From: Harmothoe impar
Lineage: Eukaryota; Annelida; Polychaeta; Phyllodocida; Polynoidae
Direction: 5' to 3'
Length of the DNA: 64,000 bases
NCBI GenBank assembly: GCA_947462335.1
Contig: OX381708.1
Span: forward strand, 44,023,377 to 44,087,376
The position numbers and the translations under genes are program-made. Under the pieces are notes generated by a model. It saw only the letters and a program-made list of their open reading frames with translations. It did no database searches and was not told where the DNA came from. How positions within the stretch are numbered: position 1 is the stretch's first letter; each line of letters opens with the position of its first letter. Shown piece by piece: positions 3,275 to 29,217 of the stretch.

Positions 3275-3428
3275 AGGGAGCGTGAACATGGCTGAGGCAC
3301 ATAATGCCATCGCCTTCTCATTCACGGTCACCGATGACGGGGTCGACGTCAACCTCAACCATGAGGCCATCAAGGCTGTCTGGCAGAGCGGCCTGCGGTC
3401 CTGGAAGAAACGCATGGCACGCCTAAAG
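3275..3428 (+). CDS. CPT1: CPT1 exon 1: start codon and N-terminal regulatory segment (residues 1-47)
   Basis: The acceptor at 3271-3274 (tttacag) puts the exon start at 3275. Thirteen bases of 5' UTR precede the ATG at 3288, so at least one non-coding exon lies upstream. The protein begins MAEAH like vertebrate and insect CPT1, and Glu3 and His5, known malonyl-CoA sensitivity residues, are present. The exon ends in a basic stretch (WKKRMARLK) before the first membrane segment. Donor GTAACC at 3429, phase 0. Confidence 0.95.
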
Positions 3429-6400
3429 GTAACCACCTAACGCTGCTTTAATGTAGCCAACAGTATGCAGGTTCTACAGTTATTCAGCGGCAAATAAATT
3501 ACGGAGCAAGCCTTACCTAAATGGGAACACTTCAACAGAGTTAACCAGTTATGGGCCGCATAGTGATTTAATGTGCTGTCCTCGTTGTCGTAATGCTGCA
3601 TCTATGCATCCCTATCATGATGCTTGAATGTAGCTCTGGCGAGTTACTCGCTAGGGCTGCATTTATGCATCATGGCGACAAAGGACATAGCGCATTAAAG
3701 CATTATGTTGCACTTAAAGGATTCGATATGACAACGACGGCCTACCTGGCAGTATCCTGGTCGTGCCTTCCTGCTGTGTACCAAGTGAACATAGGGCACG
3801 ACTCACTGTGCATCATGCTGACCTCAAGGCCCTGTAATAAACACAATGGCGTAGCTCTTTTTATATGAAATATCGATTCCAAATCTTTATATTACCTATT
3901 AACATGTATCCTCAATCATGAGTTGGTAACTCGAGCAAAACTGATGATCTCATTCATCTCATGCCTAATAAACTGTCAAATATCTATTGATCGTAGAGAT
4001 AAGACCAAGAAGGCAACAGATGATATTAGCCGTTAATACATGTACATAATGAAAGTTGTACAAGTATACATTCTATGTCTATTGTCATTGATCTTCCAGA
4101 ACAACTTCATCAATGGCGTGTACCCTGCATCACCCGTCAGCTGGCTCTTTACCATCACTATGGTTCTGGGCCTCACCTTGGCCGATGTCGACCCCTCCTT
4201 TGGTCTCATCACAAGTCTAAAAGGCATGCCAGGGTCAGTATTGTGTATTAATAATGTATGCGTATAACATAGCAATGTATAAGCAAAAGAGGACATATAT
4301 ATTCAGTCCCAATATGCATAGTTTTTGGGTTTTCCTCAAATATACTTAATCTCTGGAAAAATACTTAATCCCAGAAAATGTGTTGAAAATCGCGGATAAA
4401 CTCTCAATTTGGTGAAAAGAGTTGTTCATTAATGGTAAAAAGAAAAAGTATATAACATGCAGTGGAGTGTAGTCAAATACAATAAATAGCAAAATGATGT
4501 GTGTTGAAAACGTCAGAAATATTAGATCAATCAGCATTTTGATTTGATTTCAACAGTATCCGTAGTCTGGAGGATTCTGGCCGGCTGTACGCTAGCTGCA
4601 TCGCTTATGCTACCATTCTGTGGGTGACCATCATCCTGTGCATCCAGTACCTGCTCAAAGGTCTCCTCACCTACACCTCATGGATGTATGAGCCTCGCGG
4701 CAAGATGTCGCTACGAACCAAGCTCTGGCTAGTAAGTGAAATATTTTCCCAGCAATAAATCAATAAACTTTCCTCCACCCGCACTCCATTGTAACTGGAG
4801 AGCAACCATGTTCAGTGTGTTCTCTATTTTGAGCTTAATATTCCTGAATATGAGATGGCCAAATTTACCGGTAGATAACACATGCTAAATTCAAATTGTC
4901 ACCTTCCGGCATGCTAGCAGGTTGAGCATGACAAAATGGTATACAAAATTCCCCATGATGTGTAGATCAAAAACATCTAAACACCGAGGTGGCGCACTGT
5001 CTTACCAAAGGTGATCGTGCATCAAAAAGCATGGATATCCCTCCATAATAATTAAAATCGTGATAAAACAAGATTTTAACTTTGTGCAGGTTGTGACAAA
5101 AGCGTTAGGCGGCCGGAACCCACTGCTTTACAGCTACCAAGGGTCTCTTCCTAAACTGCCGGTGCCAGACCTGGAGGGTACCATGAACCGCTACTTGAAG
5201 TCCGTGCAGCCCCTGATGGATGAGGAGAAACACAAGCGTATGGAGAAGTTAGTCACCGAGTTCAAGAACGGTATCGGTCCCAAGCTGCAGCGCTATCTCA
5301 CACTCAAGTCCTGGTGGGCCACCAACTATGTAAGTATGGTTAATAGATCATGTGGGAACTTGCTGATTTTTCTCGTCGTAGGAGAGCCAGTACATACCCT
5401 GGTAGAAATGTAGCTCTTTTCCATCAAAAAGTCGTGATGGTTGAATTCTATGTGAATGTTTGAATGCTGGAAATAAAAATAACCACTTATTCACTTAGGT
5501 ATCTGACTGGTGGGAGGAGTATGTTTACCTTCACGGCCGGTCCCCAATCATGGTCAACAGCAATTTCTACGGCATTGTAAGTACACCGCGAACACGCTTG
5601 TCAATGACAATACCGTGCGGTATCCACTCAATTTTGTTAATGTGTAGAATTAAAATTGGCATAAAAATCAACGGTTATGGGTTAGAAACAAGGTTGCATA
5701 TAGACCCCTCACTAGATACATGTACCAGGAATAAAATAGAAAGTCAGTAATTTCACTGATTGTGCTACATTAAGATGTGTAAGAATAACATGATGCTTTA
5801 ACTGCTTGGTAGGATGCAGTATACCGTCACCCAACCACGGTCCAGGTCGCACGAGGAGCCAACATCATCTACGCCATGCTTCAGTTCCGCCGGCAAATCG
5901 ACCGTGAAGAGCTCAAACCTGTAAGTACATAAAAAAAACAATACTCAAACCTTTAAACTTCATGTAAGGCCACACCAAAAAAAAGTTAGTTTATGGGGGA
6001 AAAGGGGGGGAAAAGTCATTAGTGAATTTCGCTCAGCTAATTTTTTCAGGATTTAATTTTCTTTCTTTCTTTTGCTCCTCTTCTCTGAAACCCCGTGGTG
6101 GCAAAACATTTAGTTGTCGCGGGATCAAAGAAAGTAGAAATAGTACAAACTCATTGACAACAAAATGTTTGTTTCAAAATATCCCATTTAATCTATAGTT
6201 GCTGGCACCATTTTCTGGAAATGGAGATCCATAGACCAATTTTTTGGTATGGCTTACTGAAGATGTTATGCATGTGGTCTGCCTGCTGCACAATTCGCCA
6301 TTTTACCCCCTATGGTTTATCTTGAGTTCTAACTCTCTGAATGTGTCGTTTTATAGATTACATAGGTATTTCTTGTCTGTTCAGTTACTTACACTTCATC

Positions 6401-9400
6401 AGCGACCTTTTAACCATAACTAAATATATTGACTGAAATTAAAGGCATGCACCTGGAATGAGAATGTCTTCTTAACAGGCCGGTAGTAAGGGTGAACATT
6501 TGTGTATTAGTGAACATAGTCCTGTTTTAAACTGACCTAGACGAAAAGCATGTGCAATATATAACTTCAATACTATTTATGTTTTAATACCTTTGTTTTG
6601 ACTTTTTGTATGTTGAACTATTGCTTAGTTTTTGTACAAACAATTTCCACCTACTTGTACTAACATTTGAGTCAACACCGACATCTTATTTGCAAATTTT
6701 CATCCACGACAATGAAGATCGTAAGTATTGGATTATGCCACTTCGCAGTTGGCATAAAACCGAAAGTAGGATAAGTCTAATACTTGCTACTAATATAGCG
6801 CACACATTATATGCTCCAATGGAGAAGAACAAAAGGAATGGGGAATGCGGATATTGTAAGGAAAATAAGTGGATTTTACATGGATGTTGTATTTCACAAA
6901 AATATTGTTACCTCCCATGTTAAAGGTTCCCTACAATTTATTTTAGCTGTTCCATTGAAAGTTCCTTATACGTGTGTGTATACGGCGTATCATATTCGTT
7001 CATTGTGGGTTTGTGTCAGGACATGTTGAAAGAAACACATGTTTATTAACACATTCTAAATGGAGGAAAGGATGATAAAAAAAAATACATTGAAAAAAGT
7101 ACCCTTTGTGTCGGTATCAATCTAAAGCATGGTGGGAGGTGTACGGCAGAGTACATAGGATATGTTTTCCATAAAAAAGAAGAGAGCTGCTCCTCTTGAG
7201 GTTTTCTGTTTTGCATAGGATTTCTGTTTTACATGACTTCTTTTTGTTTCATTTATTTGAGGTTTTGGTCAAATAGATAAGAGTGTGAATTAGCAGGTTA
7301 TGGGACATTGGTGTTGCTGTAATATCAATGTTAAGGGTGCCAGGAATGAGCAATGAGGCAATTCTGAATTAATACAAATTGCCTACCGGTGTACTGGTCG
7401 AATCCACCTGTTTGGTTGTGTGTTGTGAAGGAGTCAAGGAATGCAACTCAGGAAGTATATATACTGTATTCGACGTAATAAGCGATCGGGGCGCCTATAA
7501 AGTATTTGTTGTCGCAGTTTAGTACTTAAGAATTGAATTTTCTCTAAAAAAAAGAAAAGCTAGGGTATCTTCTATTCTAGAGAATTTCCCAAGAGGTGGC
7601 GGGGGGGGGGGGGGCGCTTATTACGTCGAATTCAGTATGCGTATTCACTGTGTTGAAAAATGGCTAGTTCTAATGATGCCTGCTTTATGGTTTCTCACAG
7701 ATCTTGCTGAACAAGACAGTCCCCCTGTGCTCATGGCAGTACGAGCGTCTGTTCAACACCACACGTATTCCAGGAGTGGAGGCAGGTCAGTAGCTCTCTA
7801 TTCATCCAAAATGTGCGCCCTTTTGTGTTAAGTTACTTTGGTCCCAAGTGATTCATTTATGCATCACTGATGGGTCTATTTGACAGGGATGCATTTATTG
7901 ATCCATACATCATTCCCACCATATAAGGCATAGGCCGGACTGGAGCTTGCTGCGGCGGCCCGCACTGATAACAGCTGGTAGGGTGGGTACCAGCATGTCC
8001 CTGGAAGTGGGTGTTACCCAGGGACAAGGTACCAGTCAGGGGGTGCCTTATCAGTGGGTTTCACCGCAACCAACGAAGTTTTAAATAGTGGACCCACTGG
8101 TTATGAAGCTAGACTCCTATAGGAGTGCATCAAACCCGTATTGTCAACATGAAAAAAAAGGAATGCAGCCCTGGCAAGTAGACTCGCCAGGGCTTCATTC
8201 ATGCCCCATCCGTGACCATGGCTGTAAATGGTGATGGGTAATACTAAAAAGCATAATGTACATACAGTCAGTATTCCACAACTTTTTTACACTGTTGATA
8301 CCTTTTCTGCTTACAGATAAATTAGTCCACTGGAAAGACTCCACGCACATTGCCGTTTACCACCGCGGGCGTTACTTCAAAGTCTACATTCACTACAAGG
8401 GAAAACTCCTGACACCTCCCCAGATTGAACAGTAAGTAAGGTTCATATGACAATCGATTTGATGGATAACAAGTCTTTCAGAGGTGTGGGGCAGGGGTAT
8501 AGGTTAATATGGCAATGTGTAGGCCTACATGCTGTTCTACAGGGTTCTAATAAGGATTTTGAAGAAAGACCATACCGAATGGCCTGTATATTCAAACAGA
8601 ACATCTTCAGCCAATGAGTGATTCAATTCTTCTGTCAGAATGTCAACAATGACTCTTTTTCTTCTGACAGTATGCTACAAAAGATCATTGATGACACATC
8701 AGTGCCAGTACAAGGCGAAGAGCACCTCGCCGCCCTCACAGCTGGAGACCGGATTCCCTGGGCTAAAGCGCGTACTGACTACTTTGGTAAGGGTGTGAAC
8801 AAGACGTCCTTGGATAGCATCGAAAAGGCTGCCTTTGTCGTCGCACTTGATGAAGATCCTCAGGAATTCGATGTGGTAAGCTGGAGACATTATTTTGAGA
8901 AAATTTGTCACAGAAACCTTTGTATTCAAACCACTGGGAATTATTGCCCTTTTTAAAATTAACGCAAACAAAAAGGAAAGTGTAGCACACTGAATGGTGG
9001 CATGCTCGATCAGGTGCGGCAAATGTTGCTGTTGTACGATTGTATTCAACATCTATGTGCCTCTCCCACTTTGTATACCCGGTAAATAATGACTATTTTT
9101 TATCTTCACCAGAACGACTCTGATAAGTTGGACAAATACACACGGGCAATGCTGCACGGCAAATGCCATGACCGTTGGTTTGACAAAACCTTCACACTGG
9201 TTGTGTGCTCAAATGGACGGGTAAGTTATAGAAATTGATAGCTACATATTTGAATTTAAAATACGTTATGGATCGGTTACCACATCCAAGTTGTTATTGG
9301 CCATGATATTGCATGTTTTCGCTGTTACCAGGGGAACTGATGGCAATTATCAGGAGTGTCTGTCCTTTAGGTCTTACTCAAATAGATGTATGTCTTACCG

Positions 9401-12400
9401 GAATAATGTCTCTTTCCAGATTGGCTTCAACGCTGAACATTCATGGTGAGTTTACTTTCCATGTCGTTTCTTAATGATGTACGAGTTTATGAAATACAGA
9501 CAATGTTTTACAAAACATTTTTATGGGATTTCGGTATTCAAGATAGCCAATAAGACAATCTTAACGTTTCTATATAAGCCGATCTCCTGTTCATGTTTAA
9601 TCTTTATGCTTTACAAAAAAGAGGCTTCTTTCCTGAAAGACGTGTATCCGGTAATGCATTTATGTTGAAATATGTCTGTTATTATTCGATTAAGTATCGT
9701 ATGCATGGAGTGGTGACTAATGTGTAGTAAATGTAAAAATTTACGCTCATTACACTTTTACATGTTCAAACCGATCGCTCACGCCCTTTTCTCGAAAGTG
9801 AAATGTAACTTGAGATCATACAGAGTATCAAATAAATAATGCACTCAATCTGAAGTGATCTAGGGGCAAATTCAAATACACACGGCGGACACTTATGCAA
9901 GTGGATAAGCGACATGTATTGCCTCCTTAGTATTACTCTTAGGCACTGAGTTAAATGTTGACAGACTGCTCCTCAGCTCCACCAGGATGCGCCACTGTCT
10001 TCACACCAGTAACATTTACATTGCTTCCAGGGCCGACGCCCCAATCATGGCCCACCTGTGGGAGTCGGTGATAACGGACGATGTATCGCTCGGCGGGTAG
10101 GATACTTCTTCAGCCTGTAGAGAGTCATGACATAGCCATACTTCCCTTTCTTTTCACTAGTACATGTGTATCCTGTATACTGTTGTCTTTTACTTCTCTG
10201 CCTTTATAACCCCCCTGTAGCATCACACTTGTGTATGTAAGTGCACATTTCTTGCTCTGTCTGTCTTAGCTGAATCTGTAGGTGACTGCTGCTCCAGCCG
10301 CCCTGAGACGTGATAGACGGCAATTCTTTCTTTAGCTTTCAGTTTTGTGATCAGTTAATCCCATGATCTTGTCTGATTGTTACACCACAGGAAGTGTCAC
10401 TGTACCCCATTAATGATTCAAAGATTATCATTCAAGCTTTTCTGTTATCAGCATTATCGTTTTGTCAAAGTCTTATTGGGAAAGGAATGAAAATCTTCAA
10501 AACATTTTTAGAAGACTGTCTGTTATGACATAACATTGGAATCGGTGGCCCTTCCTATTGAGTGTGTATTTATCAGTGGCATAGACTGATGGGCTGCCAA
10601 TGTTAAGACCTGTGCTGCAGTGTTGTACCATTGTGTGGGGCTGTCCGCTTTACTAGCCGCCACGCGGTGTGTGCAGTACTGGCGGCCCGCACTGTTTCAT
10701 ATAGCAACTGCATCCAAGCTCTACCCACCAGGACTCAGATTTTACTATTCTTGTTACAATTGCCACCCTGAAGGCAATGCCCGGTCTGACGACATCTGCC
10801 ATGTTTTTTTACGTATCTGCCTGATATTGTAGGGCCGACGCGCCGATCATGGCTCACTGTTGGGAGGAAACAATAGCTTATGACATGACATCATCAGGGT
10901 ATGATCACTAGTTGTGCCTCGCTATACTGCTTGGTGGTCAAGGTTTCAGCCAAGGCCCCCTACACAGAGTTCAATAACCACCTTTACTCATAAGCATGTT
11001 CACAATAAGATTATAAGACCAACAAACAGAATCTTTCTTCTTTAAGACATATATTGAAACAAAGGGAAAGCTTGATATTTGTGAAAACAACTCAAAGTAA
11101 TATGCTAAAGAACCTTTAGTACAGCCACATGTGTTGACAAAGTCAGCGTAAAATCCTGACTAAGAAGAGAAGTCGAGGTTTCTCAAAAGTGTAGCTACAC
11201 AAAAACTACCTTATATTAGGGACTAAGCAAGTGGGGAAAAAAAACCATTCCCATCTTTACAAGAAGATACTTTCTTGAATCCTCACTTTTTAGTTCCCAC
11301 TACTTTCACTACATCATGTGTCCTTTATCCTAATCCTGACAGATTGACAACTCACTTAAAGCACTTTGAAATTAGAAAAAGTCACATCCAATAATGACCT
11401 ACTGTCAAATATTTAGCTGTGTGCTGAGCAAAAACCGCTAGATGGCGTGTGTGTGCCAGTGCTGATAAGTGACATTTAGTTTGTGGTGAATGACACTAGA
11501 GGACTCCACTCTCTTCACTGCCAGCTATCAGCCAGTTTCTCACGCTATGCCTTTCTCGATATGAGCCAAGATAGGAGCCTCTGAACAAAGTGCTTGCTGA
11601 ATGTCAAGTTGCCAACATTACTGTTTTAACCCATTAGTCTTTAAGCTTTTTTCTTCATTCACTGCAATGTGTCTCTGTAATATAGCTTTCATTTCATGTC
11701 TAATTATTTCTTCTCTCTTCTTTTTACCTTTTCCTTTTCTCACCTGATTGCCTGTTTTGTGTGGCTGCCGTATTCAATAACGTGTATTCTGTGTGCTGCC
11801 ATACCCCTGTACTACTTAACTACCCTGCATGTACAAATCTATACTGTGTGTGTATGTATGTGTGTGCTGACTTATCGCAGGGCCGACGCCCCCATCATGG
11901 GTCACTGCTGGGAGAGCACCCTCGTCGATGAACTTAACATGGGGTAAACTAGACACCTCCCGCTTTGTACCTTGTTTACGTGTGCTGAGTTTTAAGCTAG
12001 GGTATTAATGGAATTTGGTGCTGTTGATTTTGATGTTTTGAATTACCAGGTATGTGGATTCCCTGTTAAAACGGTTTGGGCAGTAAATGTATTGAAGTAA
12101 CATTCTACTGATGTTTAGAATGTTCCTTAACCATCCCAAAGTGGATGGACCACCTTGCTCGGGGTCCTGTAGGTAGTACATGTAGTGGGGGTGGGGCGGG
12201 GGCGGGGCGGGGGGAGTGCATGGCCACTTCTAATTTGAAAGTTGAATACATGGGCGTGTGAGCTGAAACCTACTAATACCTTTCAAATGTTAAATGTCAT
12301 TGGCATGGATGGCATTTACATGTACCCTGGAAACTTCACACTTTAGTACTTAAGAATTCCCTAGAATACCACTAGTGCCCATACTGAGCTAAATTTTATA

Positions 12401-15400
12401 ACCACGAACGCATGGGCGGACATGGCGTGTAAATGTAGAATTAAGGCATTTTAGAATATTTACGTATGTTGCTACATGCTAAATTGCTCATTTATTTGAA
12501 CCATTATTACTACTGCAATTATAACGTCTTCTGGATATCTACTCGGTAATTTGATCGGATTCGTTCAAAATTTAAAGATAATATAGTCTAGATGTTGATT
12601 TTTTTTTAAAGTATATCATGGTAATTCACCCGAGAAATATCTTTTAAATACGAATAACATACACCTCACATGACGCTTGACAGATGTGGTTTTTCCATTA
12701 CAGATACCGCGATGATGGACACACAAAAGGAGAAATGGAGTTCCAACCACCAAACCCTATCCGCCTACAGTGGGACATCCCCACAGATGTATGCACCTTC
12801 CTTTTAAATCAAACATGTGTTATAGAAAGCAAAGTAAACAATAATATTATTTAAAGAAGATATGTTATAATGTATGATCAAAACGATTTAGCTTTAAAGT
12901 AAGTGATACTGTGTTCATCTGAGTACAAGTGCAAAACCAAGGTATAACTGTCCATGCCTTAGATCGAACAGATTTCCCCTCTCACTTCAAGCATGTTTGT
13001 TCAGTGTTTGGTCCATTATGCCACTGACATTCTTTTATGGGGTAAATTAAATTATTTTATGAAGCATTTAATGATTGGCACAAGTGTATGTATAAAACCT
13101 CATGGTATAATCGATACAATGATGCGTGACTTTTGGTATTCCAGTGTTGTAGCATCATTGAGAACAGTTTGACGGTGGCACGTGGCCTGGCAGTGGATGT
13201 CGACATGCACCTTATGATGCATGACGCCTACGGGAAGGGCCTGATGAAGAAGTGCCGCACGAGTCCTGACGCCTTCATCCAGATGGCGCTGCAGCTTGCC
13301 TACTACAGGGTATGTAGCGCAACATTTAGCTAGTCGATATGCTTATGAGTGGGTGTAGACAGGTTAATGGGTACATGTTTCGAGTGGAAGGTATATTTGA
13401 TTATGACATAATATGTGTGAGAGTACATGTGTTTATGTGTGGGATTGATTATAGCCTGTCTGGGCATTATACGCACGCCTTCAAAAATGGCTGGATAATG
13501 AGATATGTACCCCCCCCCCCCTCACTCAGTCAGCAACATTGCATAAGTCAATTATTCGAAAACTCTTTTTTTTTTTAAAGGACCGCCCTTATAGTCCTGA
13601 TGATGAATAGAATAAAGAGCCTCCCGCCGTCACAATTTTTTTTCCTAAAAGTGTCCGCAGTTCTGAATACTGGTTTCAATTTTACATGCAGGGGTACACA
13701 TGTGTGTTTATGTCCGTTATATGTGCTTTTAGAAATAGGGAGAGCTGGAGGACTTAAAATACCTGGACCCTAATGTCACTGAAAATCTAAACTGTTTTAC
13801 GTGCAAGACAACTTCATTCAAATACTCTTATTGCTAACTGCAAAAAACATAAGAACTGACCATTGCAACTGGCTAGCTAATTTAATCCAAACAACTGACC
13901 TTCAGACCATGGCAATATCCTTACTAATGCTTTATTACTGGACATCGATTCTCTCTCTTTGTAGCTCTATAGTGATCGATGCCCAGTTTTATACTTCAGA
14001 CCAGTGGCTCATTTTGGCTGTTTTTTGCCTCACAGATTGCTTCTAGGGCAAAATCCTGACTAGGTGCCAATATATTCTCTATGCCAATGTGTAATATGAG
14101 GGTAGAAAACACTGGAACCTCAGTTAGAAAAAATCCTACTGAACAGTTTTTGAGAAAATTAGGGTTTTGTTGCATATTTTTGGTGCTTTTAGTACATTTC
14201 CTACATAAACCGTGAACGCCAGCATTTCTCACTTTTCAGGTGTTTAGAATCAGAATTTGACTTTTTTTTATTCGCAGTAGGATTTCTGAGTATCGAGCCA
14301 TTCTAGAAAAGCTATTCTTTGGAAAAAATACTTAATATTTCTTGATGATTTTCGTTGCACAAATTTAGGGTTGTAATATAAAAACTGCATTGTCATCCAA
14401 TCAAAGTGTTTATGCACTGTTGATGGTCACCCCCTCCCACCCTCTTCACTCTGCATTGAAGGAGAACAGGCAGGGGAAGTACACTTGTCCGTATATAGCT
14501 GTTGACCTGCTTGCTGGGTGCATTTTCAATTTATGGGGTGCCAACTGTTCATGAAAGAAAAATCAAATAGAATTTTTTTTTTTTTTTAGTATCAGATTAA
14601 TGTTACTACAATTCGTGATAGCACTTAAAGCATTGTATTTGCATTAATATGAATGGTAGCAACCTTATGGGGTGCCAACTATTCATGAAAGAAAAATCGA
14701 TAAGAATTTGTTTTTTATTAGCATTAAATTGATCCAACTACAATTCGAGATTGCATTTCAAGCATCGGGGCATTCAATGAATGGTAGTCATCTTAAATAT
14801 ATGAGGTGCCAACTGTTCATGAATTTAAAAAAAAAGAATAGAATTAGTTTTTTTATTAGTATCAGATTAATGCAACTACAATTCGTGATTGCACTTAAAG
14901 CATTGTGGCATGCAATGACTGGTAACCACCTTGAATGTATGGGGTGCCAACTGTTCATGAAAGAAAAGAAAAAAAGTTGTTTTTTTTAGAATCAAATTAA
15001 TTCAACTGCAATTCAAGATTGCATTTAAGCATTATGGCATTCAACGACTGGTGGCTATCTTGAACCTATGGGGTGCCAACTCTTCATGAAAAAACAACTA
15101 AATTGGATTTTTTTAACAGTATAAAATTAATGCAACTACATTTCAAGATTGCATTTAAAGCATTGTGGCATTCAATGAATGGTGGCCATCCTAAACCTAT
15201 GGGGTGCCAACTGTGTTTGAAAAAGGTATCAAATAGACATTTTCTTATAATAGATATCAAATTAATGCAGCTACAATTCTTCATTGCACTGAAAGCATTG
15301 TGGCATTTAGTAAATGGTAGCCATCTTGAATGGGTTGAATGAAGGAAAAATCAAATAGGATTTGTTTTTTTGATCAAATTAATGCAACTACAAGTCAAGA

Positions 15401-18400
15401 TTGCATTTCAAGCATCAGGACATTCAATGAGTGATAGCCATCTTGAATCTATGGGATGCCAACTGTTCATGAAAAAAAAAATAGAATAGATTTTTTTTAT
15501 TAGTATCAAATTACTGCAACTGCAATTCGAGATTACATTGAAAGCATGGTGGCATTCAATGAATGGTTGCAATCTTGAATTTTGAAATGAACATATGCAC
15601 AGAAAAATCAAATAGAATTTTTTTTTTTTTTTTAGTATCAGATTAATGTAACTACAATTTGTGATAGGACTTAAAGCATTGTATTTGCATTAATATGAAT
15701 GGTAGCCACCTTATGGGGTGCCAACTATTCATGAAAGAAAAATCGATAAGAATTTGTTTGGGGTGCCAACTGTTCATGAAAGAAAAAAAAGAAAGTTGTT
15801 TTTTTTAGAATCAAATTAATTCAACTGCAATTCAAGATTGCATTTAAGCATTATGGCATTCAATGACTGGTGGCCATCTTGAAGCTATGGGGTGCCAACT
15901 CTTCATGAAAAAACAATCAATTGGATGTTTTTAACAGTATAAAATTAATGCAACTACATTTCAAGACATATTCATAGGCATGAACATGGTGTTCTCCTTC
16001 ATTATAGATATTCATGGATTTCTACTTCTACTTAATATAGCTTTCTGTTAGAAGGATTCTGTTACATGGATGTCGATGTCCAGTTTTAGATATATATCCA
16101 TATAGTGCATTGGAGTGCTATAATGTTGGACTGCTGTATATTTTGTGATAGTATTTGTCTTATCGTAACTGTAAACGTAATCAAATTGATTGCTTTTACT
16201 TATATTAAATGTTTCAATTGCAGGATGCAGGCAGATTCTGCTTAACTTACGAAGCTTCCATGACGCGACTATACCGAGAAGGCCGGACAGAGACTGTGCG
16301 TTCCTGCACAAATGAGTCTGCTAATTTCTGCAAGATCATGTGTGACAGTTCCAAAACGGTAAATAAACTTTAAAAATCCCAGTAAATACCATGTATTAAA
16401 TTATTTGTTGAATCAAGTCAGAAAGGAAGGGGAAAATTGATTATTATTATTTATTTATGGTGGACAATCTTTCTTTTATGGTACAAATGATCGATGATTA
16501 AATGAGATGGTATTTGTCTGTTGTACAGAGTGCAGATAGGATAGAGGCATTGAAGATTGCAGCAGAGGCTCACCAGGACGGTTACAGGAATGCCATGACA
16601 GGGAAAGGCATTGACCGCCATCTCTTCTGTCTCTATGTCGTATCAAAGTACCTCGGCATCGACTCTCCCTTCCTCAAGGAAGTACTCTCTGAGCCATGGC
16701 GCCTGTCCACCAGCCAGGTTAGTATGATTTCAATAGTATTATTTCAGCAGGTAACCCACTCCCGAGAAACTCAGTGTTTAGTGAAACACTTAACCCTTCA
16801 AGGACAGTATCATGCCTCTATGCATCATGTCCTCCGTCGTCATGATGTATGAATGCAGCTATGGCAAGATACATTCAAGCATCATGCTGACCGTACATGA
16901 TTGATACACTCCCGAAGGATTGGCATGATACTGCATTGGTGCATCATGACGACAAATGTCATCTTTTAGGGACATGCCGTCCATAAAGAATTTAGTGAAC
17001 AGGATCTTCCGTGTTAGATTCCTGTGCTTTTGAAATGCTAATTCACACCTAATTCACCAGGTGGCTAACGTAATATAAATGATCTTTTTACAGACTCCAC
17101 ATCAACAAACAGACAAACTGGATCTCACAAAGAACCCAGAGCTCATATCAGCCGGTGGCGGCTTCGGACCGGTATGTACCTTTATTCTATGATTCGGCAA
17201 ACATAAATGAACAGTTGAACAACTTCATATAACCGTATTCGACGTAATAAGCGCACACCCCCTAATAAGCGCACACACCCCGTTTTTGGCCGATTCTTAT
17301 ACTAGAAATAACCAAAAATATCTCAATTTTTTACCCCAACTAAACTCTTAACTACTAAAAGGCATCCATAATATTTTTTTAAGCGCACTGTGCGCTTATT
17401 ACATCGAATACGGTAATTATAATATACAAAGTAAAAGACAGCAAGAAATACGATGTTATTTCATCAGAGATGCCACTATTCCTACTTTTGCAGGAATTCA
17501 TACTTTTTTGCTAGAATTTCTGTATTGAATTAAGCTAATTTCCTACAGAAAATTGACCAAAGTCTTAGGATTTCCTACTTTTGTCGACAAGAGAGTGGCA
17601 TCTCTGTTTCATTTTTGTTTCATACCAGGAACATTATTTGATATTTAAAATGACGTCATGTAGAAATGTATGTTCTTATCATCAAATCGTGAAGCATGAG
17701 CGGGGAGACTATCTCTGTCATGTATGGGCGAGGCTGCGATTATTATATGATTATACTCACTTGGATGTATATTGCAGCTATAGAGATCTGTGTGACGACA
17801 ACCAAATCACGGAGATATAAATTACATGCATAGAAAAGGTTGTTGAGTAACAACGGCTATCAAGGCTATGGCATTGTACTGATGTCTGTATTGGCTACTT
17901 ACTTATTAAGTGGTTAGCGCTCTGACTGGAGAGTGTCAGGTGTAAAGAGCCCGAAGATGGTTAGCTCTGTAACTGATGACTGTTATTGGAAGGGGTTACC
18001 ATATTGCGCTAAAACAATCTATCAACGTTACAACGTTATAGTGTAGTAGCCCTCCCTCTCTAGGGGGGTTCGCCCATTTTCTTTTTTTCCCTCTACCTTC
18101 GTTAAAAATACTGTTTCAGACAAATAATCTCAACATAAGGGGTAAATTAGTATGATTGAAGTTTCTATCTAGGTATCGTTTAGCATTTTAGTGAAATAAA
18201 TGAATTAGATCAATATTTGTTGTCCGCACACCTCACTTTCTGCGAAATCGCCCAGTTTTTAACGTAATCCGAGCGCAACTTTGCACTGATCTCTATGGCA
18301 AAAGTGTTTCGTTTCTGTTTGCATCAAAAAATGTCATATTTTTACTTTATTACCATTATACATATGATATGTATTGCCTTCTATATTGTCGGTGCTATAC

Positions 18401-21400
18401 ATAGCCATAGACTTTTTTTTTTAATTGTAAAAGAGTAGTTTGGACGATTTCCGTTAGCAATATTTCATCATTTTGACTGAGTTATGTTACCTTGGGACAA
18501 TCGTATTTTTTCCATATAAATACACCTCAAAATACAAAATTATTGATCTACCGGGGTATATATCATTATAAAGTTTTGTTTTGTCATTTTCGTGCAAGTG
18601 TTATTTCCAATTGTTTCTATCATGTACCGTGCTTCTTTATTTCTGCCCGACTGTGGGTGGAGGAGAATCAAAACAAATGCAGATTTCGCCATGAAAATGT
18701 CACCAACTAAACTTATTGCGGGGGGGGGGGGGGGGGAGAGAGATTTTGCGTGGAGTGTGCAAAAGATTTTCACCCCCCCCCCTCCCCCACTAGAGGGGTT
18801 GGAATGTTAAGAATCTATGGGTGATCTATATATAAACGTAGGCCTATTGCAATTGCTTGATTGCGATTGCGTAGGGCCCCTAGCTGTTGGTAAAGCTACA
18901 TGTAGGCCTACGTGTATAGGGAGGATAGCCTATCCAGGCTGGGGGCCGCCATGACACCTCCGCCCCCGACACCAACCATTACATAACACCAGGTGAGGTG
19001 AGCTCATGTTGGGACCCCCTGTCATGTGGACATGCAAGAAGCCACTGTCAACTGGTCAAGGTTCCCAGAAATGTCTCAAACAGGGGTGTACACTAACATT
19101 TAAGTATCCTGAGAAAGCTGTGGGTCCGGATTTTAAACTGTGGGCCCAGAAATGTAACATTTAAGTCTGTTCTATAGATGTTCCCACCATATATGGGACT
19201 CAACAATCAAGGTGTATTCACTGAAGGGAATTATCAGTTTGGATGAGTTTTTGCCAGTCATTTATTTTTTGATCATACAGTAGAAGCCCTGCACATCATT
19301 CCTAAGCAAAATTGATTAAAAATGTGGACAAATTCTGATTTTTATAGTTAAGTGGGTGATTGGAACATCCTAAAATGGGGGTGTCACAGCCTAAAATAGG
19401 GGTTATTTTGACCTGCACAGGCCTATATGCTGTCAGATTTGTAGCTTTCTGAAGCATCATATGTGCCCCAGACAGACTACTAAGACTATTAGCATCAGAC
19501 ATAGAGCTTTCAATTATATATCTTAAGTAAGAAGACTGTCTTGGCTTTCCAAAACTGTTTCAAGTTGAGAAAACAAGCTAATATTGCTTGAGTTAGGAGG
19601 CAAAATGTAACAATAAGTTACCCATCTTTTTGCACTTTTTGCAAGAAGGCACCAATTAACTCTTGAAAGCCTGTTTCATAGACCCAATGGTCAGATTCCT
19701 TATAGTAGAACACAGTGGGATGACAAAAACTTTATTTTGGCTGCCAATACAAGGCCCTACTAGCCTCCCCATTAGTCCCCCCACCCCCTTTAGGATTGTA
19801 GCTCCAATTACAAGCTTTGGTTTGTACCTAATATCGGGTCTCTGAGCATAACAGTTCAAGAGATCCTAACATATTCTGTCTAATGGCAGGCATAAAGCTT
19901 GTTTTGCCTCATTCTGAGAATCTGTTTAGAGGTTCGTAATTTCCAAAGCAAAGGTGCTAGAGTTATCAAAATAGGCTCAAAAGAAGTGGAATTTAGTTTT
20001 ACCCAATCTGTGAACTTCCCATGTGCACACTGTGATTATTTATCCTGTAATGGCAGTCAGAGTGATGAAAGGTAGATAAAAAATCCAAATTTTAGAAAAA
20101 ATTGTCATGGTTACCATGGCAACCGGTCACATGATTTTCAAAATATGGGAGTGACAATGCCTGAATTATTTAGCTTTTCACCTTAGCTTTAACCTGATAC
20201 CTGGTTCACTATTGTAGGTTGAGGGGTTGCAAAGTTATCAATGACTCTTTAAAACATACTGGGTAAACTTTAAGTTTGAGTCCCATATATAGTGGGAACA
20301 TCTATAGTGTGACAGGTGGGGTGCCACAGTGGCTTCACTGTGAGCGAAAATAGGGAGCTGTCACATCTCTGACTCTTCACACTTCTGTATATTAACACTT
20401 TGATACATGCATAAAGCTGCCCATGGCATTGTTTTCATACACCCATACTGTGTAATAAGTCAAGAATGCTCAAGGGTGTGAAGGAAAAGTGGAAAAGTCA
20501 ACCAAAGTATTATAGAACAAAGAGCCAGTTTAAGACTTAGCTCCCGACAGGCACAGCTCTACCACATCGCCATCTAGTGGGAAGGCCGGGAACCAGGGTA
20601 TCCCTTCTGCCCTATAGGGCTATCGACCCCCCCCCCCTTGTTTTGTGGTTACTGAAGGTAAAAGTGTCTATATAGCCTATAGGCCTCCATAACTAGGCAT
20701 TTAACTCATTATTTGCAGGTTTAGGCCTATAGGTGTAATTCCCTCCTTCATTTCAACTAGGGACATTAAAACCCGCATTAAGCTGCTTTTGAAATAATAT
20801 TTGGTAGGCCTAAACTAATATGAGAAATTATGAAAGGCGATGGGCATATTACATCATCATTGTCACCTAGAACGAATATAGCATAATATAGCGCTGTAAC
20901 TAGTAACCCCTCCCTTTATTTTACTACATAGAAAATTGTGATGATATAGTGGTGTAACGATATATTTAACGGTATAGCAGTACATTTTGTATTACATAAG
21001 TTATCATAGAAGGCAGCCTTATTACATTATTGACCCAGGGACCCTGGGTCTCTGTGAGACAGTTTTCCAACAAAAAACATAGATTGGTCAGCTGACTTTG
21101 AAAATTCACCCTGCTTTTTTTTTTTGGTATTTCTCTCCCAAAAAAAGCTCATCCACATCTCGGGAACTATCTTTCTCTTCCCGTTTTTCCCAAAATTTCC
21201 GTACAATTTTTTTTCCTAGTGAAAAAAGACAAATAAAAAATGTCAAAAACTACCCAAAAAACAAGTCTCTGTGAACTAATGCTGAAGATAGGCCAGTGAC
21301 CTTGAATCCTGACTTTAAAAGAGTCACGTTCACACAGACTTCCTATACCTCGGAATCCACGGGCATCAACTTTCGCGCATGTTTTTGCGTGTAGTGCATA

Positions 21401-23421
21401 CAACTAACAGCACAGGCATGTTGAAAACGCTAAAGTTAATGCCCGTGGGTGGTGGTAGAGTCTTTTTTTTTGTTTTGGTCTGCCAAGTTCCTCTGGTTTC
21501 AAGTGTGACTGTTCAGGACACCTTGGACAAGGAAAAACTTTTCAAATATGACATAGCACACTGTATCAATAGATCAATATTTATGATACCTATCCTGTTG
21601 TGTAAACCATTTTTAAATATTTCCACTAGAAGCCCTGGGTCACTTGTGATGTATATCACACAATCCATCTTTTTACAGTTTCCGCCTATTAATGGGGGCG
21701 GTGACAATCGTGCTGGTGATGACAGGCTTGTCTTCTAGGTAGTTTAGTGTAGGACATGCAGCCAGAGTTGAAATAAATTACTAGCTATTTCTATGTACGC
21801 AAAATTTCTCGGAAAATTAACCCCCAAACCCGCAGGCCCTCTTCAGGGTTGCTACCGTCAGGGGAAATTATTTTCGTTCCAGGTCAGGGAAATGTCAGGA
21901 AATTTCAGGGTTTTTTTTTGGGCAAAATGTCAGGGAAAATGGGAATTTGTGAAAAATGTCAGGAAAAATTGTATTTTGTCAGGGAAAATCTTTGAAATAG
22001 ACTCTACCAAATAAAAAAAAGTCACCTTGAAAAAGCCTTTATTTTTACTATAATTTTCAGGGAGAAAAAATCTACATCCTCAAGAAGGAGGCGGTAAAAA
22101 CCTTGGGGGCACACAATACACAAAACCCCTGTTGTTAAATAATGATCACTTGCTAAGTAAAACATAACTTTAAAAGGAGTGCATATTCATAGTTGGAGGG
22201 CATTCAAAAACACTGGCTTTATATTGCTGTCAAGGAAATTAGATATATGTCAGGGAAAAGTCATGGAATTCAAAACCACCTTGTCAGTGGCGACCCTGTT
22301 CTTGGTGTGTAAACTTTATGAAGACTCCTAGGCTTTAAATTAGATAAGTGTGGAGACCTCTTCACAGTAGCAAGAGCTACCGTAAAACTTCATTTATAAG
22401 CCACGGCTAGTATGTGAGTCAGTCGGTGCGGCTTATAGGATCGGCCCAGAGTCGGGCCGGCTTATATGCGATCTTTTGATGCTATGGTACAGTACTAAAG
22501 TCGCCATAATCCAACCCTGGTGCGGCTTATAGGATCGGCCCAATGTCTGGGTGCGGCCAATATGTGAGTTAGCCTTATACGTGAGGTCTTACGGTACCCT
22601 GTTATGATGGTTAGGTGAAAATGGACACATGATATGGCCATTTACAGAAAATGGATCCGGGTATTGCCTCTCTTATCAGATCTCTAGATAATCGCCTTGG
22701 CGGGTCAATCCTAGCCTTCTCATTTATCCTAGCCTTCTCATTTAAAGATAAGCTGATGTAAATCGGCTCTTCCCTGGAATTGACACATACAGAAATACCT
22801 CACAGAAACCATAAACGACAAGGCAAATCTACATCAAACATCCAAGAAATGGACGGAAAAGCGGAAGCAGCTTAACAAGCAATATATTGCTAACCCGCAA
22901 GATAAAGTCTGTCTCAGTGAAGATGTTGTTGCCTCCTGCTCTGTTTGTAGCACTAGTTGTAACGTTGACCGTTGTCCTTCAGGTGGCCGATGACGGGTAC
23001 GGAGTGTCCTACATTATTGCCGGTGAAGACACCATCTTCTTCCATATCTCATCCAAGAACTCCTGCCCCACAACGGTAAGCCCTATCTCTATGGTTAATA
23101 CTGCCTATCTGATCCTATTATCAATGTCTAAGTAAGTATATGCACATCTTGATATAGCTTCTTTGATACTTAAGTTGTCACATATTTTATCAGCCTTACT
23201 TCTTTATCATAGACCTTTCTAATCTAGTCTGTTGATGTTGCTTTTTGTACCAAATAATTGCACATCCCAGCCAGTTTAGGTACAAAAGGGATTTACAGAC
23301 ATCTTCAATGCAGTGTATAACTTTGGCTTCTTTTCAACCGTTTCAGAATTCGCGCAATTTCGGTCAACAGATAACAAAGGCTTTAGCTGATATCAAGGAC
23401 TTGTTTCCCAATGCGAAGTAA
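3288..23421 (+). CDS. CPT1: Carnitine O-palmitoyltransferase 1 (CPT1A-like), whole spliced coding region, 19 coding positions
   Basis: Known role of the family: transfer of long-chain acyl groups from CoA to carnitine at the outer mitochondrial membrane, the malonyl-CoA-controlled step of fatty-acid oxidation. Joining exons 3288-3428, 4100-4233, 4557-4731, 5090-5329, 5499-5576, 5813-5920, 7701-7785, 8317-8431, 8671-8875, 9113-9220, 9420-9445, one of three position-12 cassettes, 12704-12788, 13145-13309, 16224-16358, 16529-16717, 17094-17171, 22983-23075 and 23347-23421 gives 2301 nt (766 residues plus stop) with cassette A or B, 2298 nt with C. Every junction is GT-AG and in phase. Visible parts are the N-terminal regulatory segment (MAEAH start, Glu3 and His5), two membrane segments (about 53-72 and 103-125) and the carnitine acyltransferase domain with catalytic His470 in AEHSW, TET at 599-601 and STS at 682-684. 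Assignment to CPT1 is very secure; which vertebrate isoform it is orthologous to is not. Confidence 0.97.
3553..3722. mobile_element. Hairpin element, GCCGCATAGTG family
   Basis: The left part GCCGCATAGTGATTTAATG and the right part (reverse complement GCAACATAATGCTTTAATG) pair, and the centre carries a second short hairpin around GCTCTGGCGAGTTACTCGCT. Relatives or fragments are near 722-800, 8160-8210, 16796-16975 and 51083-51105. Confidence 0.5.
4100..4233 (+). CDS. CPT1: CPT1 exon 2: first transmembrane segment (residues 48-92)
   Basis: The acceptor ttccag ends at 4099. The exon opens with [12 protein letters not shown], the conserved sequence ahead of TM1, followed by a hydrophobic run (about residues 58-72). 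It ends two bases into a glycine codon with donor GTCAGT at 4234. Confidence 0.94.
4557..4731 (+). CDS. CPT1: CPT1 exon 3: second transmembrane segment (residues 92-150)
   Basis: The acceptor caacag ends at 4556; the first base completes the split glycine codon. A hydrophobic run at about residues 103-125 is TM2, which returns the chain to the cytosolic face. It is followed by the linker ending in TKLWL. Donor GTAAGT at 4732, phase 0. Confidence 0.94.
5090..5329 (+). CDS. CPT1: CPT1 exon 4: linker and start of the acyltransferase domain (residues 151-230)
   Basis: The acceptor tgtgcag ends at 5089. It encodes the conserved entry into the carnitine acyltransferase fold: SLPKLPVP, then [11 protein letters not shown] and KSWWATNY. 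Length 240 nt, phase 0 at both ends, donor GTAAGT at 5330. Confidence 0.96.
5499..5576 (+). CDS. CPT1: CPT1 exon 5 (residues 231-256)
   Basis: The acceptor cacttag ends at 5498. Encodes [16 protein letters not shown] and MVNSNFYG, a strongly conserved acyltransferase block. Phase 0, 78 nt, donor GTAAGT at 5577. Confidence 0.96.
5813..5920 (+). CDS. CPT1: CPT1 exon 6 (residues 257-292)
   Basis: The acceptor ttggtag ends at 5812. Encodes the region ending [12 protein letters not shown]. The position aligned with rat CPT1A His277, a reported malonyl-CoA determinant, is Tyr276 here (NIIYAM against NAIHAI). Phase 0, 108 nt, donor GTAAGT at 5921. Confidence 0.96.
5964..6257. mobile_element. MITE-like element with GTAAGGCCACACC ends
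   Basis: Left end GTAAGGCCACACCAAAA, right end reads in reverse complement GTAAGCCATACCAAAA, giving imperfect terminal inverted repeats (TIRs) about 294 bp apart. There is no coding capacity and no clear target duplication, so the superfamily is unassigned. Confidence 0.6.
7464..7635. mobile_element. TA-flanked MITE, CGTATTCGACG family, copy 1
   Basis: The ends CTGTATTCGACGTAATAAGC and, in reverse complement, CTGAATTCGACGTAATAAGC form TIRs, with TA on both sides (7462-7463 and 7636-7637). The inside includes a G-run near 7600. Copy 2 lies in intron 17 at 17233-17413. Confidence 0.7.
7701..7785 (+). CDS. CPT1: CPT1 exon 7 (residues 293-321)
   Basis: The acceptor ttctcacag ends at 7700. Encodes [19 protein letters not shown], a conserved family block. 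Ends one base into a codon, donor GTCAGT at 7786. Confidence 0.95.
8317..8431 (+). CDS. CPT1: CPT1 exon 8 (residues 321-359)
   Basis: The acceptor gcttacag ends at 8316 and the first two bases complete the Asp codon. Encodes [15 protein letters not shown], the conserved strand and loop near the CoA site. Ends two bases into a His codon with donor GTAAGTAAG at 8432. Confidence 0.95.
8671..8875 (+). CDS. CPT1: CPT1 exon 9 (residues 359-427)
   Basis: The acceptor cttctgacag ends at 8670. Contains [16 protein letters not shown], a family signature block, and then the [16 protein letters not shown] helix-strand unit. Phase 0 at its end, donor GTAAGC at 8876. Confidence 0.96.
9113..9220 (+). CDS. 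CPT1: CPT1 exon 10 (residues 428-463)
   Basis: The acceptor cttcaccag ends at 9112. Encodes [19 protein letters not shown], the strand leading into the catalytic loop. 108 nt, phase 0, donor GTAAGT at 9221. Confidence 0.96.
9420..9445 (+). CDS. CPT1: CPT1 exon 11: 26-nt microexon carrying the catalytic histidine (residues 464-472)
   Basis: The acceptor ctttccag ends at 9419 and the donor GTGAGT starts at 9446. The exon encodes IGFNAEHS plus two bases of the Trp codon. His470 matches catalytic His473 of rat CPT1A. Its length is not a multiple of three, so skipping it would shift the frame. It feeds directly into the cassette cluster, because each cassette supplies the last base of the Trp codon. 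Confidence 0.94.
10031..10096 (+). CDS. CPT1: CPT1 exon 12A: alternative cassette, AHLWE type
   Basis: The acceptor gcttccag ends at 10030; donor GTAGGA at 10097. 66 nt, entering with the last base of Trp472 and leaving two bases into Gly494. It encodes [21 protein letters not shown], the most vertebrate-like of the three (AHLWE as in CPT1A). Pro476 and His480 match rat Pro479 and His483. Together with 12B and 12C it forms a tandem exon cluster, presumably spliced one at a time. Confidence 0.95.
10833..10898 (+). CDS. CPT1: CPT1 exon 12B: alternative cassette, AHCWE type
   Basis: The acceptor atattgtag ends at 10832; donor GTATGA at 10899. 66 nt in the same phases as 12A. Encodes [20 protein letters not shown] followed by Ser-Gly. 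The ADAPIM core, the His matching rat His483 and the WE pair are kept; rat Leu484 is replaced by Cys, and the helix after WE differs entirely. The reading frame is intact and the splice sites are usable, so it does not look like a dead copy. Confidence 0.93.
11843..11870 (+). promoter_or_regulatory. UG-rich tract ahead of cassette 12C
   Basis: Repeated TGTGTG/TGTATG units sit between the presumed branch region and the 3' splice site of 12C. UGU-rich RNA is a known binding target of CELF-type splicing regulators; a role here is inference from position. Confidence 0.35.
11881..11943 (+). CDS. CPT1: CPT1 exon 12C: alternative cassette, GHCWE type
   Basis: The acceptor cttatcgcag ends at 11880; donor GTAAAC at 11944. 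63 nt, one codon shorter than 12A and 12B but in the same phases. Encodes [20 protein letters not shown] plus Gly. A UG-rich tract lies 11-38 nt before the exon, and a G-run cluster lies about 240 nt after it. Confidence 0.93.
12187..12214 (+). promoter_or_regulatory. Potential intronic G-quadruplex after cassette 12C
   Basis: Five G-runs of four to six bases, separated by single T or C residues, on the transcribed-RNA strand and 243 nt past the 12C donor. The pattern satisfies the usual G-quadruplex rule. A splicing role is inference. Confidence 0.4.
12704..12788 (+). CDS. CPT1: CPT1 exon 13 (residues 494-522)
   Basis: The acceptor ccattacag ends at 12703; the first base completes the Gly codon begun by any cassette. 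Encodes [10 protein letters not shown] and then RLQWDIPTD, the conserved block after the variable helix. Donor GTATGC at 12789, phase 0. Confidence 0.95.
13145..13309 (+). CDS. CPT1: CPT1 exon 14 (residues 523-577)
   Basis: The acceptor gtattccag ends at 13144. Contains [20 protein letters not shown], the basic segment that contacts the CoA phosphate in this family, then LQLAYYR. 165 nt, phase 0, donor GTATGT at 13310. Confidence 0.97.
13310..16223 (+). other. CPT1 intron 14, largely filled by a 135-bp tandem repeat
   Basis: 2.9-kb intron. 13310-14500 holds no recognised element beyond C and T homopolymers near 13510 and 13565. 14530-15970 is a satellite-like array (own entry). The last 250 bp before exon 15 are unique. 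Confidence 0.85.
14530..15970 (+). repeat. Tandem array, unit about 135 bp, roughly 11 copies
   Basis: The phrase TATGGGGTGCCAACTNTTCATGAA recurs near 14530, 14665, 14803, 14938, 15068, 15199, 15450, 15712, 15758 and 15888, with degenerate units near 15335 and 15585. Each unit has a T-run, an attaATGCAACTACAATTC core and GCATTCAATGAATGGTAGCC. Units near 14570-14730 and 14940-15110 reappear almost unchanged at 15610-15760 and 15760-15960, so a multi-unit block was duplicated within the array. Confidence 0.85.
16224..16358 (+). CDS. CPT1: CPT1 exon 15 (residues 578-622)
   Basis: The acceptor caattgcag ends at 16223. Encodes [20 protein letters not shown]: Met590 matches rat Met593 (a malonyl-CoA determinant) and TET at 599-601 is the carnitine-binding triplet. 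135 nt, phase 0, donor GTAAAT at 16359. Confidence 0.97.
16529..16717 (+). CDS. CPT1: CPT1 exon 16: STS carnitine-site motif (residues 623-685)
   Basis: The acceptor ttgtacag ends at 16528. Encodes [20 protein letters not shown], then [16 protein letters not shown], with STS at 682-684, the conserved active-site triplet. 189 nt, phase 0, donor GTTAGT at 16718. Confidence 0.97.
17094..17171 (+). CDS. CPT1: CPT1 exon 17 (residues 686-711)
   Basis: The acceptor tttttacag ends at 17093. Encodes [20 protein letters not shown] followed by GGGFGP, the conserved glycine loop. 78 nt, phase 0, donor GTATGT at 17172. Confidence 0.96.
17233..17413. mobile_element. MITE, CGTATTCGACG family, copy 2
   Basis: Left end CCGTATTCGACGTAATAAGC; right end in reverse complement CCGTATTCGATGTAATAAGC. 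Flanked by TAA on both sides (17230-17232 and 17414-17416). Related to 7464-7635 by its TIRs. Confidence 0.7.
17465..17606. mobile_element. 140-bp MITE with AGAGATGCCACT ends, copy 2
   Basis: CAGAGATGCCACT at the left and AGTGGCATCTCTG at the right; the interior is clearly homologous to 363-504, so this is a dispersed family. Confidence 0.72.
19175..20304. mobile_element. TA-flanked DNA element of 1130 bp, TAGATGTTCCCAC ends
   Basis: Left end TAGATGTTCCCACCATATAT and right end in reverse complement TAGATGTTCCCACTATATAT, with TA at 19173-19174 and 20305-20306. A TA duplication suggests the Tc1/mariner group. No transposase frame is visible, so it is probably non-autonomous. It contains a perfect RFX-type X-box at 20109-20124. 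Confidence 0.72.
21844..22298. mobile_element. CAGGGTTGC-type inverted-repeat element
   Basis: Starts CAGGGTTGCTACCGTCAGGG and ends in reverse complement CAGGGTCGCCACTGACAAGG. The inside repeats GTCAGGGAAA many times. The terminal sequence resembles hAT-type non-autonomous elements; no clean target duplication was found. Confidence 0.6.
22379..22595. mobile_element. MITE with ACCGTAAAAC ends
   Basis: ACCGTAAAACTTCATTTATA at the left and ACCGTAAGACCTCACGTATA in reverse complement at the right. The inside holds two copies of GGTGCGGCTTATAGGATCGG. Confidence 0.65.
22983..23075 (+). CDS. CPT1: CPT1 exon 18 (residues 712-742)
   Basis: The acceptor gtccttcag ends at 22982. Encodes [20 protein letters not shown], then HISSKNSCP, the conserved C-terminal strand pair. 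93 nt, phase 0, donor GTAAGC at 23076. Confidence 0.97.
23347..23421 (+). CDS. CPT1: CPT1 exon 19: C-terminus and stop codon (residues 743-766)
   Basis: The acceptor accgtttcag ends at 23346. Encodes [20 protein letters not shown], then PNAK and TAA at 23419-23421. The end fits the length and lysine-rich tail of vertebrate CPT1. The 3' UTR continues beyond. Confidence 0.95.
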   Translation, partial: NSRNFGQQITKALADIKDLFPNAK

Positions 23422-26400: not shown

Positions 26401-28100
26401 AAAGCATACCTGTGTACATTTACTGTTTATCACATGGCCGCATTTGTTGTGTCAGTTACTGTTGGTTTGGGCGGCGTTTACTTGAAAGATTTAGCGAAAG
26501 AAAATAAACATGACTCTTAGGCACAAACCACCTCATGTGTTGCTATTGCATTTTGTGATTCATGGTCCCGAATCTGCGGATTTCAATTCCAATTTCACAC
26601 TCACAAAGTAAAGCTCGTGAAGACTAGAATTTCAAATCGTTTAACGATAATAACATCCAGGGGAAATCAAGATACATATCTGGTCAATAAACTGAATAGA
26701 GTAGGTCAAATTGAATATATTTTATGCACTAAACGACCCTACATTCGTATAGCTCACCATTATTGCGTTAAAGACCCTACATGCACACGCATCATTGCTT
26801 TAGTGACACTACATAGTAGGGCCCATATGGGGGGGGGGCGGGGTCCGAACCTTTCTTTGTAGATTTTCTTTGTATAGGAATTGTCAATATGTATTGTATA
26901 ATAAAATTAAAATCTCTAGCCTCTCAGTGACTATGTGGGTGTACAGAAAATTGTGGATGGTTCTGTTGACTAGACTGCAGTCCAATTGATGAGGAGTGTA
27001 GATCAGGCATTTTCTAGGCACCTGCAGTGTTTTCCAGTTGATAATTTGATAAGCTGCTGACTACAGGCTCCAAGGCCAACTTGGTACTAGCATCTCGATT
27101 GGCTGATGAGTGATCAAGATGCAAGCGTGGATGTGATAAATCCTACTGTGAGAGGGAGACAAGTCTTCAGGGTTGCCTAGACATGATAAACTGTGCTCTG
27201 AAAAGGAGTAAAGTGTCAAGGCACGAAACACATTGATTTCCAAGTTGTATGCAGTGTTCACCTTAAAAGAATAAGTCCCCTCCTGCACCTCCAGAAAAAC
27301 TATAACACAGAAAGAAAAAGCCTCATGCCCTAACCCTTTTCAAAATATTGTTCGCACAATTTTCAGCTGACTTACCCTTATATTCCCTCCAATCACTCCC
27401 AATTCGATGCTCACCATCCCTGCTAACTGCAAAGAGAAATCTCTGCATTTGATAAAAAAAATGCCACTATACTCTCAGTGCTACTTGTCGATGTCCCTCT
27501 CCCTAGAAGCAGAATAGTAGGAGAATAACCCCTCCCCCAGTAACATGATACATCATACAAAAGTACCTAATGGATTTCCTTGAATTGCAACAAGCTTTTA
27601 ACAGCTCCTCTAAGTAAACAATATGCGGCTTCAGGGCTGGCAGGAGCACTGGGCAAGAGTGAAATCTCCGCGGAATCCCGGAAATCCAAGGTTTTTATCT
27701 TCACTATTAAAGACAGATCCACAGATTCCTCCAGATCCGTTGAGAATTCAGTTTCCTTATAATGTAGTGAGAGGGGGGAGGGGGCTGGCATCAGATTTCG
27801 TCAGACTAGAACACCAAATTACATCAAATTGCACCATTTGGATTTTGATACCTTTTCGTGGGGCCCATGTCCCCCCAATTCTGTCAAAATGCGCTACACT
27901 TGCTACCCCACTGCACTCCGTGTACGGCCTCTTAACTTTGTGCATCATGGTCAGATGAAATCATTCTTTTCTTTTCTATTTCACGCCCCTGAGTGGGAAG
28001 CAATCTCCACCCTTGTCAAAAGTCTGTTCTTGGCAAGAAATAAAAGCAAGACGTGGTTTTGTGGACATACGCAAGGCATTTGATTATGTCAGCCACCCCC
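23422..28100. other. 3' flank of CPT1, no gene recognised
   Basis: It begins with the CPT1 3' UTR of unknown length. A small inverted-repeat element lies at 24566-24717 (left GGGGTAGTCATTTTGTAAC, right in reverse complement AGAGAGTGGTTATTTTTTTT), related to the one at 63531. Short open frames here look random: they have no family motifs and no plausible splicing. Confidence 0.6.
24221..24226 (+). terminator. Candidate CPT1 polyadenylation signal
   Basis: AATAAA 800 bp after the stop codon, the first clear canonical hexamer downstream. There is no transcript evidence, so it is only a candidate. Confidence 0.3.
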
Positions 28101-28164
28101 CCGGGGGGGGGGGGGGGCACTTGGTATATTTTGTATACACAGGTGTGCGGCTGGGAAGGGTACT

Positions 28165-29132: not shown

Positions 29133-29217
29133 AAACCCCCAGCGTCCCTATATGTAGGGCTGAGTACCTGTCCCGACTGCACTCCGACTGTTACTGGACG
29201 TGCAGTAAGATCTGCAG

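Follow-up and report, generated by a model that had tools for sequence, protein, structure and literature searches.

A putative three-member cluster of mutually exclusive exons in a CPT1 gene of Harmothoe impar

CPT1 admits fat to mitochondria and paces fat burning, and in mammals it is held in check by malonyl-CoA. The original prediction for a stretch of 64,000 nucleotides of Harmothoe impar DNA (hereafter the window) was that a CPT1 gene in it carries three tandem alternative exons for one short segment of the enzyme. This raises the question whether all three are real exons, whether each mRNA takes one of them, and what their exchange would alter in the protein.

A complete CPT1 gene was assembled on the + strand from phase-consistent GT-AG exons, running from an ATG at 3288 to a TAA at 23421. 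It consists of 18 single coding exons, 11 upstream and 7 downstream of three tandem homologous exons, here termed cassettes A, B and C. The upstream constant part (3288..9445, + strand) comprises the exons 3288-3428, 4100-4233, 4557-4731, 5090-5329, 5499-5576, 5813-5920, 7701-7785, 8317-8431, 8671-8875, 9113-9220 and 9420-9445, the last of which closes with AEHS plus the bases TG. The downstream constant part (12704..23421, + strand) comprises 12704-12788, 13145-13309, 16224-16358, 16529-16717, 17094-17171, 22983-23075 and 23347-23421. The predicted protein has 766 residues with A or B and 765 with C, and a single terminal stop in each case. Both domains expected of a CPT1 were found by Pfam in the spliced protein: the regulatory N-terminus CPT_N (PF16484, 5.9e-24, residues 1-47, in the upstream constant part) and the Carn_acyltransf domain (PF00755, 4.4e-193, residues 173-752). 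Matching sequences of solved structures (n=17) comprised carnitine acetyl-, octanoyl- and palmitoyltransferases, choline acetyltransferase, and the CPT1A and CPT1C N-terminal peptides. These two peptides match residues 1-42 and 1-50 of the predicted protein, and the solved CPT1A peptide 2le3 matches its N-terminus at 2.2e-12. The predicted spliced product is a CPT1, with catalytic activity and malonyl-CoA inhibition as predicted properties. From its motif we take residue 470, in the constant exon preceding the cassettes, to be the catalytic His, equivalent to rat His473 with an offset of three.

Some further features lie in or near the gene. A candidate upstream exon (1469-1512 joined to 3275-3287) contains an ATG, has a good donor (CGG|GTAAGA) and is in frame with the first CPT1 exon; it would place 19 extra residues (MWIPSLKRLFDKARGGSVN) ahead of the usual MAEAH start. 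A unit of 260 bases is repeated in tandem ~4.6 times at 14532-15741, within the large intron that separates exon 13145-13309 from exon 16224-16358. Inverted-repeat-like pieces that resemble one another, of the GCCCTGGCGAGT...ACTCGCCAGGGC type, with 'atgcatcat'-like ends, were noticed by eye around 3600-3670, 8160-8200 and 16800-16900, and are perhaps a small mobile element. Elsewhere in the window, there is a perfect array of ~130 AGGCAC hexamers (29356-30137) and a minisatellite of ~93 units of the CCATCATGGTTCATGG type (31635-33098), open in several frames through repetition. Seven reading frames were tried, and three had Pfam matches. LINE-like reverse-transcriptase pieces lie in two frames at 34289-36008 (+ strand); RVT_1 matches the second piece at 2.6e-19, while the match to the first, at 9.8e-07, falls slightly short of the cut-off score. 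A zinc-knuckle frame lies at 55651-55959 (+ strand; zf-CCHC, 3.5e-05), perhaps from a retroelement gag.

Exon A occupies 10031-10096 (66 nt), exon B 10833-10898 (66 nt) and exon C 11881-11943 (63 nt), all on the + strand. All three were placed by the spliced model and an ungapped scan, and B and C by tblastn as well. Each is preceded by AG and followed by GT; its first base is the third base of the AEHSW Trp codon, and its last two bases start a Gly codon. A and B encode 21 residues and C 20, ahead of the Gly formed at the junction. The encoded segment opens at the third residue past the catalytic His with a core common to all three, ADAPIM-x-H-x-WE, and continues with a divergent stretch. The original prediction of three homologous in-phase exons of 66, 66 and 63 nt with intact splice sites was exact in coordinates and lengths, and its flanking junctions, 9445 and 12704, were those of the phase-consistent model. 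Its placement of the segment directly after the catalytic His of a CPT1 is supported by the gene model and Pfam, the His itself being assigned by its motif. In rat numbering, the residues matching Pro479, His483, Trp485 and Glu486 are identical in A, B and C. The first differences are at 482 (A, A and G in cassettes A, B and C) and at 484 (L, C and C), with further ones from 487 on.

Several results indicate that B and C are more than chance resemblances to A. When isoform A was compared with the window by tblastn, B and C were each found at E = 7e-4, and every other match outside the gene's own exons had an E of 1.8 or worse. An ungapped scan of both strands scored C at 82, B at 81 and A at 74, against 34 for the next best place. 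Neither the scan nor tblastn found a fourth or decayed cassette in the window, and tblastn gave no credible second copies of other CPT1 exons there (nothing better than E = 1.8). Over their first 14 codons, pairs of cassettes differ at 10-14 of 42 nt but at only 3-4 residues. In a neutral simulation (5000 runs per pair), so few amino-acid changes in these codons had P values of 0.0004, 0.0004 and 0.0028. The last 6-7 codons were omitted from the simulation because they are diverged and C is one codon shorter, making the alignment unsafe, and the constraint result refers to the first 14 codons only. Over these codons all three cassettes are under purifying selection. Six comparisons of 250-nt flanks among the cassettes detected no similarity, the scores being reached by 34 to 163 of 200 shuffles. 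A recent duplication or an assembly repeat is ruled out by these dissimilar flanks together with the 10-14 nt differences. The lack of similarity between the introns adjoining the cassettes means that the duplications were not recent, or that they copied little beyond the exons. Very probably, A, B and C are real alternative exons.

The reading frame constrains how the cassettes can be combined, to a point. Skipping all three joins TG to the A that opens the 12704 exon and creates a TGA stop at the junction, so total skipping is unproductive. The pairs AB, AC and BC all stay in frame, and exclusivity is therefore not enforced by the frame. Similar length, compatible splice sites and frame, homology and internal position have been used to predict mutually exclusive exons (PMC3228551), and the three cassettes are alike in length, splice-site type and phase, are homologous, and lie internally in the gene. 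We consider it likely, with a probability of about 0.8, that A, B and C form a three-member mutually exclusive cluster of tandem-duplicated CPT1 exons. Each mature mRNA would then take one cassette, giving three CPT1 enzymes identical but for ~20 residues.

Two other readings of the cluster differ in how many cassettes enter the mRNA. Only one might be used, probably A, whose segment we take to be the closest of the three to vertebrate CPT1, with B and C left over from ancient exon duplications and spliced seldom if at all. U1 pairing is weakest in B (-5.1, versus -10.0 in A and -6.5 in C). We nevertheless regard this as unlikely, given that B and C have preserved frame, splice sites and core motif, more fully over 14 codons than expected under neutrality, that an exceptional AG-free stretch (described below) halts exactly at exon C, and that Pfam rates the C-terminal part nearly alike with A, B or C (351.9, 354.5 and 350.9). 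Alternatively, the cassettes might be non-exclusive, some mRNAs holding two or three in a row and so encoding a longer stretch behind the catalytic His. All three pairs tested are in frame, and Pfam tolerates an A+B insert; the C-terminal part of that double form scores 350.9, equal to that of C alone, and Pfam was discarded as a test of double inclusion because it does not discriminate. This alternative is highly improbable: each further cassette would encode the core behind the catalytic His over again, and only one copy of the segment is present in the solved relatives whose alignments were inspected (3 of 17 and 5 of 15 matches).

If the cassettes are mutually exclusive, as we prefer, something other than the frame must select among them. 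At 736 and 982 nt, the introns separating the cassettes exceed the length at which a simple steric block could operate, and minor-spliceosome incompatibility is excluded because every site is GT-AG. Weak splice sites were also rejected as a mark of alternative use, since U1 pairing and near-acceptor pyrimidines of A, B and C are like those of constant exons. Before exon C there is an AG-free stretch of 193 nt (11686..11878, + strand), containing a C+U-rich tract at about 11705-11755 and UG repeats at 11845-11866 near the exon, which possibly combines a distant branch point with a regulatory tract. It is the longest at any of the gene's 20 acceptors (next 97; 19 at A and 57 at B), and the longest of 3302 + strand gaps outside a simple-repeat area at 28000-33600. 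On both strands of the whole window there are 5 gaps of at least 193 nt among 7196 AG sites, the other four being in the simple-repeat area. Within the stretch, a branch-point-like CTAAT places its A at 11703, at a distance of 178 nt from exon C, and this arrangement suggests that the branch point is distant. Further words of branch-point type occur between 7 and 185 nt from the exon; because some are near, at 7, 11 and 62 nt, exon C need not depend on a distant one.

The four introns of the cluster are also enriched in certain short motifs. Ten motif classes were counted and seven were tested with controls (shuffles and 184 overlapping window stretches of like size). UCUU/CUUUC occurs 41 times, against a mean of 16.9 and a maximum of 26 in the stretches, and UGUGUG 11 times, against a mean of 1.4 and a maximum of 8; neither count was reached in 300 shuffles. 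Per kb, the cluster introns have 13.4 UCUU/CUUUC and 3.6 UGUGUG, versus 6.4 and 0.5 for the remaining introns of the gene. Three classes exceeded all 184 stretches, namely TCTT/CTTTC, TTCT/TCTT and TGTGTG, with counts reached in 0, 3 and 0 of 300 shuffles; the first two overlap each other. Four were unremarkable, their counts being reached in 33 (TGCATG), 31 (GCATG), 102 (CTCTC/TCTCT) and 31 (YCAY clusters) of the 184 stretches. RBFOX TGCATG sites were set aside as not significant, 54 of 300 shuffles also reaching their count. We take UCUU to represent PTB-type and UGUGUG CELF-type elements, and their enrichment suggests PTB-type and CELF-type regulation. Cassette choice could then depend on tissue or state through these elements together with a distant branch point before exon C. 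This mechanism is offered tentatively, with the odds somewhat against it.

A partial precedent is the mitochondrial enzyme OGDH, in which distant branch points enforce the exclusive use of exons 4a and 4b; in the human gene, only 25-41 nt separate them from the upstream donor, under a proposed steric limit (PMC7969005). As in OGDH, the present gene encodes a metabolic enzyme, and a candidate distant branch point is followed by a long pyrimidine-rich tract before the exon. Unlike in OGDH, the candidate before exon C is ~800 nt from the B donor, and it could regulate but not block sterically. Instead of a distant branch point, competing RNA pairing between introns might enforce exclusivity, a variant of mechanism that overlaps our main reading. 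A possible docking segment upstream of exon A (9974..9997, + strand) could pair with the three later cluster introns, near 10573, 11760 and 12189, an arrangement that is marginal against shuffles. With docking before A, the worst of the three partners was matched by 1 of 24 shuffles, and the summed pairing with introns A-B and B-C by 1 of 80, several layouts having been tried without correction. When the worst partner among introns A-B and B-C was taken, however, 10 of 80 shuffles reached its score, and docking in the last intron was ordinary (4 of 24; 54 and 52 of 80). We find this variant doubtful.

What would the exchange of cassettes do to a mutually exclusive enzyme set? The original prediction noted that the swapped segment includes Pro479 and His483; both are present, but they are invariant in A, B and C and the swap leaves them untouched, so any tuning would come from other residues. 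Its further claim, that a Pro479 variant lowers malonyl-CoA inhibition, is borne out for P479L, which also partly reduces activity (PMC6208583). Human L484P and P479L both lead to CPT1A deficiency, and one review locates L484 well away from the active region and regards it as important to stability (PMC10076611). Position 484 varies among the cassettes. Exchange thus spares Pro479 and His483 and alters their surroundings, and its effect may be on kinetics or mainly on stability. On the Drosophila model, the three forms might differ in palmitoyl-CoA affinity or in their response to malonyl-CoA. In the bug Rhodnius, malonyl-CoA was without effect on fat-body beta-oxidation (PMC10352773), which means that tuning by malonyl-CoA is not a given in invertebrates. 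The gene probably makes three differently tuned enzymes, the tuning being our inference.

The closest known arrangement appears to be that of insects. Price et al. (2010, J Biol Chem) reportedly described a two-exon pair in CPT1, covering the same ~21 residues, in all insects then sequenced. The single CPT1 gene of Drosophila yields two splice isoforms with different kinetics and with flight-muscle versus fat-body expression (PMC7767417). The insect parallel drawn in the original prediction is supported in part, for two Drosophila isoforms that differ in kinetics and tissue; that the same segment is swapped, and across insects, is what Price et al. reportedly found. As in Drosophila (whd, CG1289), isoforms of one CPT1 gene would arise here through alternative exons, presumably for the same segment. 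The position of the alternative exons after the catalytic His is confirmed in the present gene, and may be equivalent to the insect position. Where the insect genes are reported to have exactly two cassettes, there are three here. The several CPT1 versions also resemble vertebrate CPT1A, CPT1B and CPT1C, with kinetic differences that are presumed for the present forms; unlike the vertebrate versions, which are separate genes, they would be exons of one gene.

No report of three CPT1 cassettes was found in the listed titles and abstract openings of open-licence PMC literature, and peptide words gave no match there. CPT1 goes unmentioned in PMC9741552, on human tandem duplicated exons, and in PMC3228551. 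A paper on a crab gives a length of 915 residues for CPT1 alpha and 775 for CPT1 beta, and its main text has no words starting with 'splic' or 'exon' (PMC6070261). Searches for relatives in viral and prokaryote contigs gave 2 and 15 pattern matches, none of them confirmed. The cluster is best read as resembling the exon pair reported from insect CPT1, with a third member added, and its novelty lies in that number.

Three natural versions of the segment that share Pro479 and His483 amount to a ready-made experiment on how substrate affinity and inhibition are tuned. The cluster would gain in interest if it proved old, present outside insects, and if its third exon were tissue-restricted. Should distant animals share it, splicing-based tuning of CPT1 would go back further, or occur more often, than the insect example implies. 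It is conceivable, though we would not favour it at present, that a non-insect animal lineage has kept an old three-way CPT1 exon switch, with PTB/CELF-type regulation and a distant branch point governing the third version; splicing, and not separate CPT1A, CPT1B and CPT1C genes, would then set the choice of fuel.
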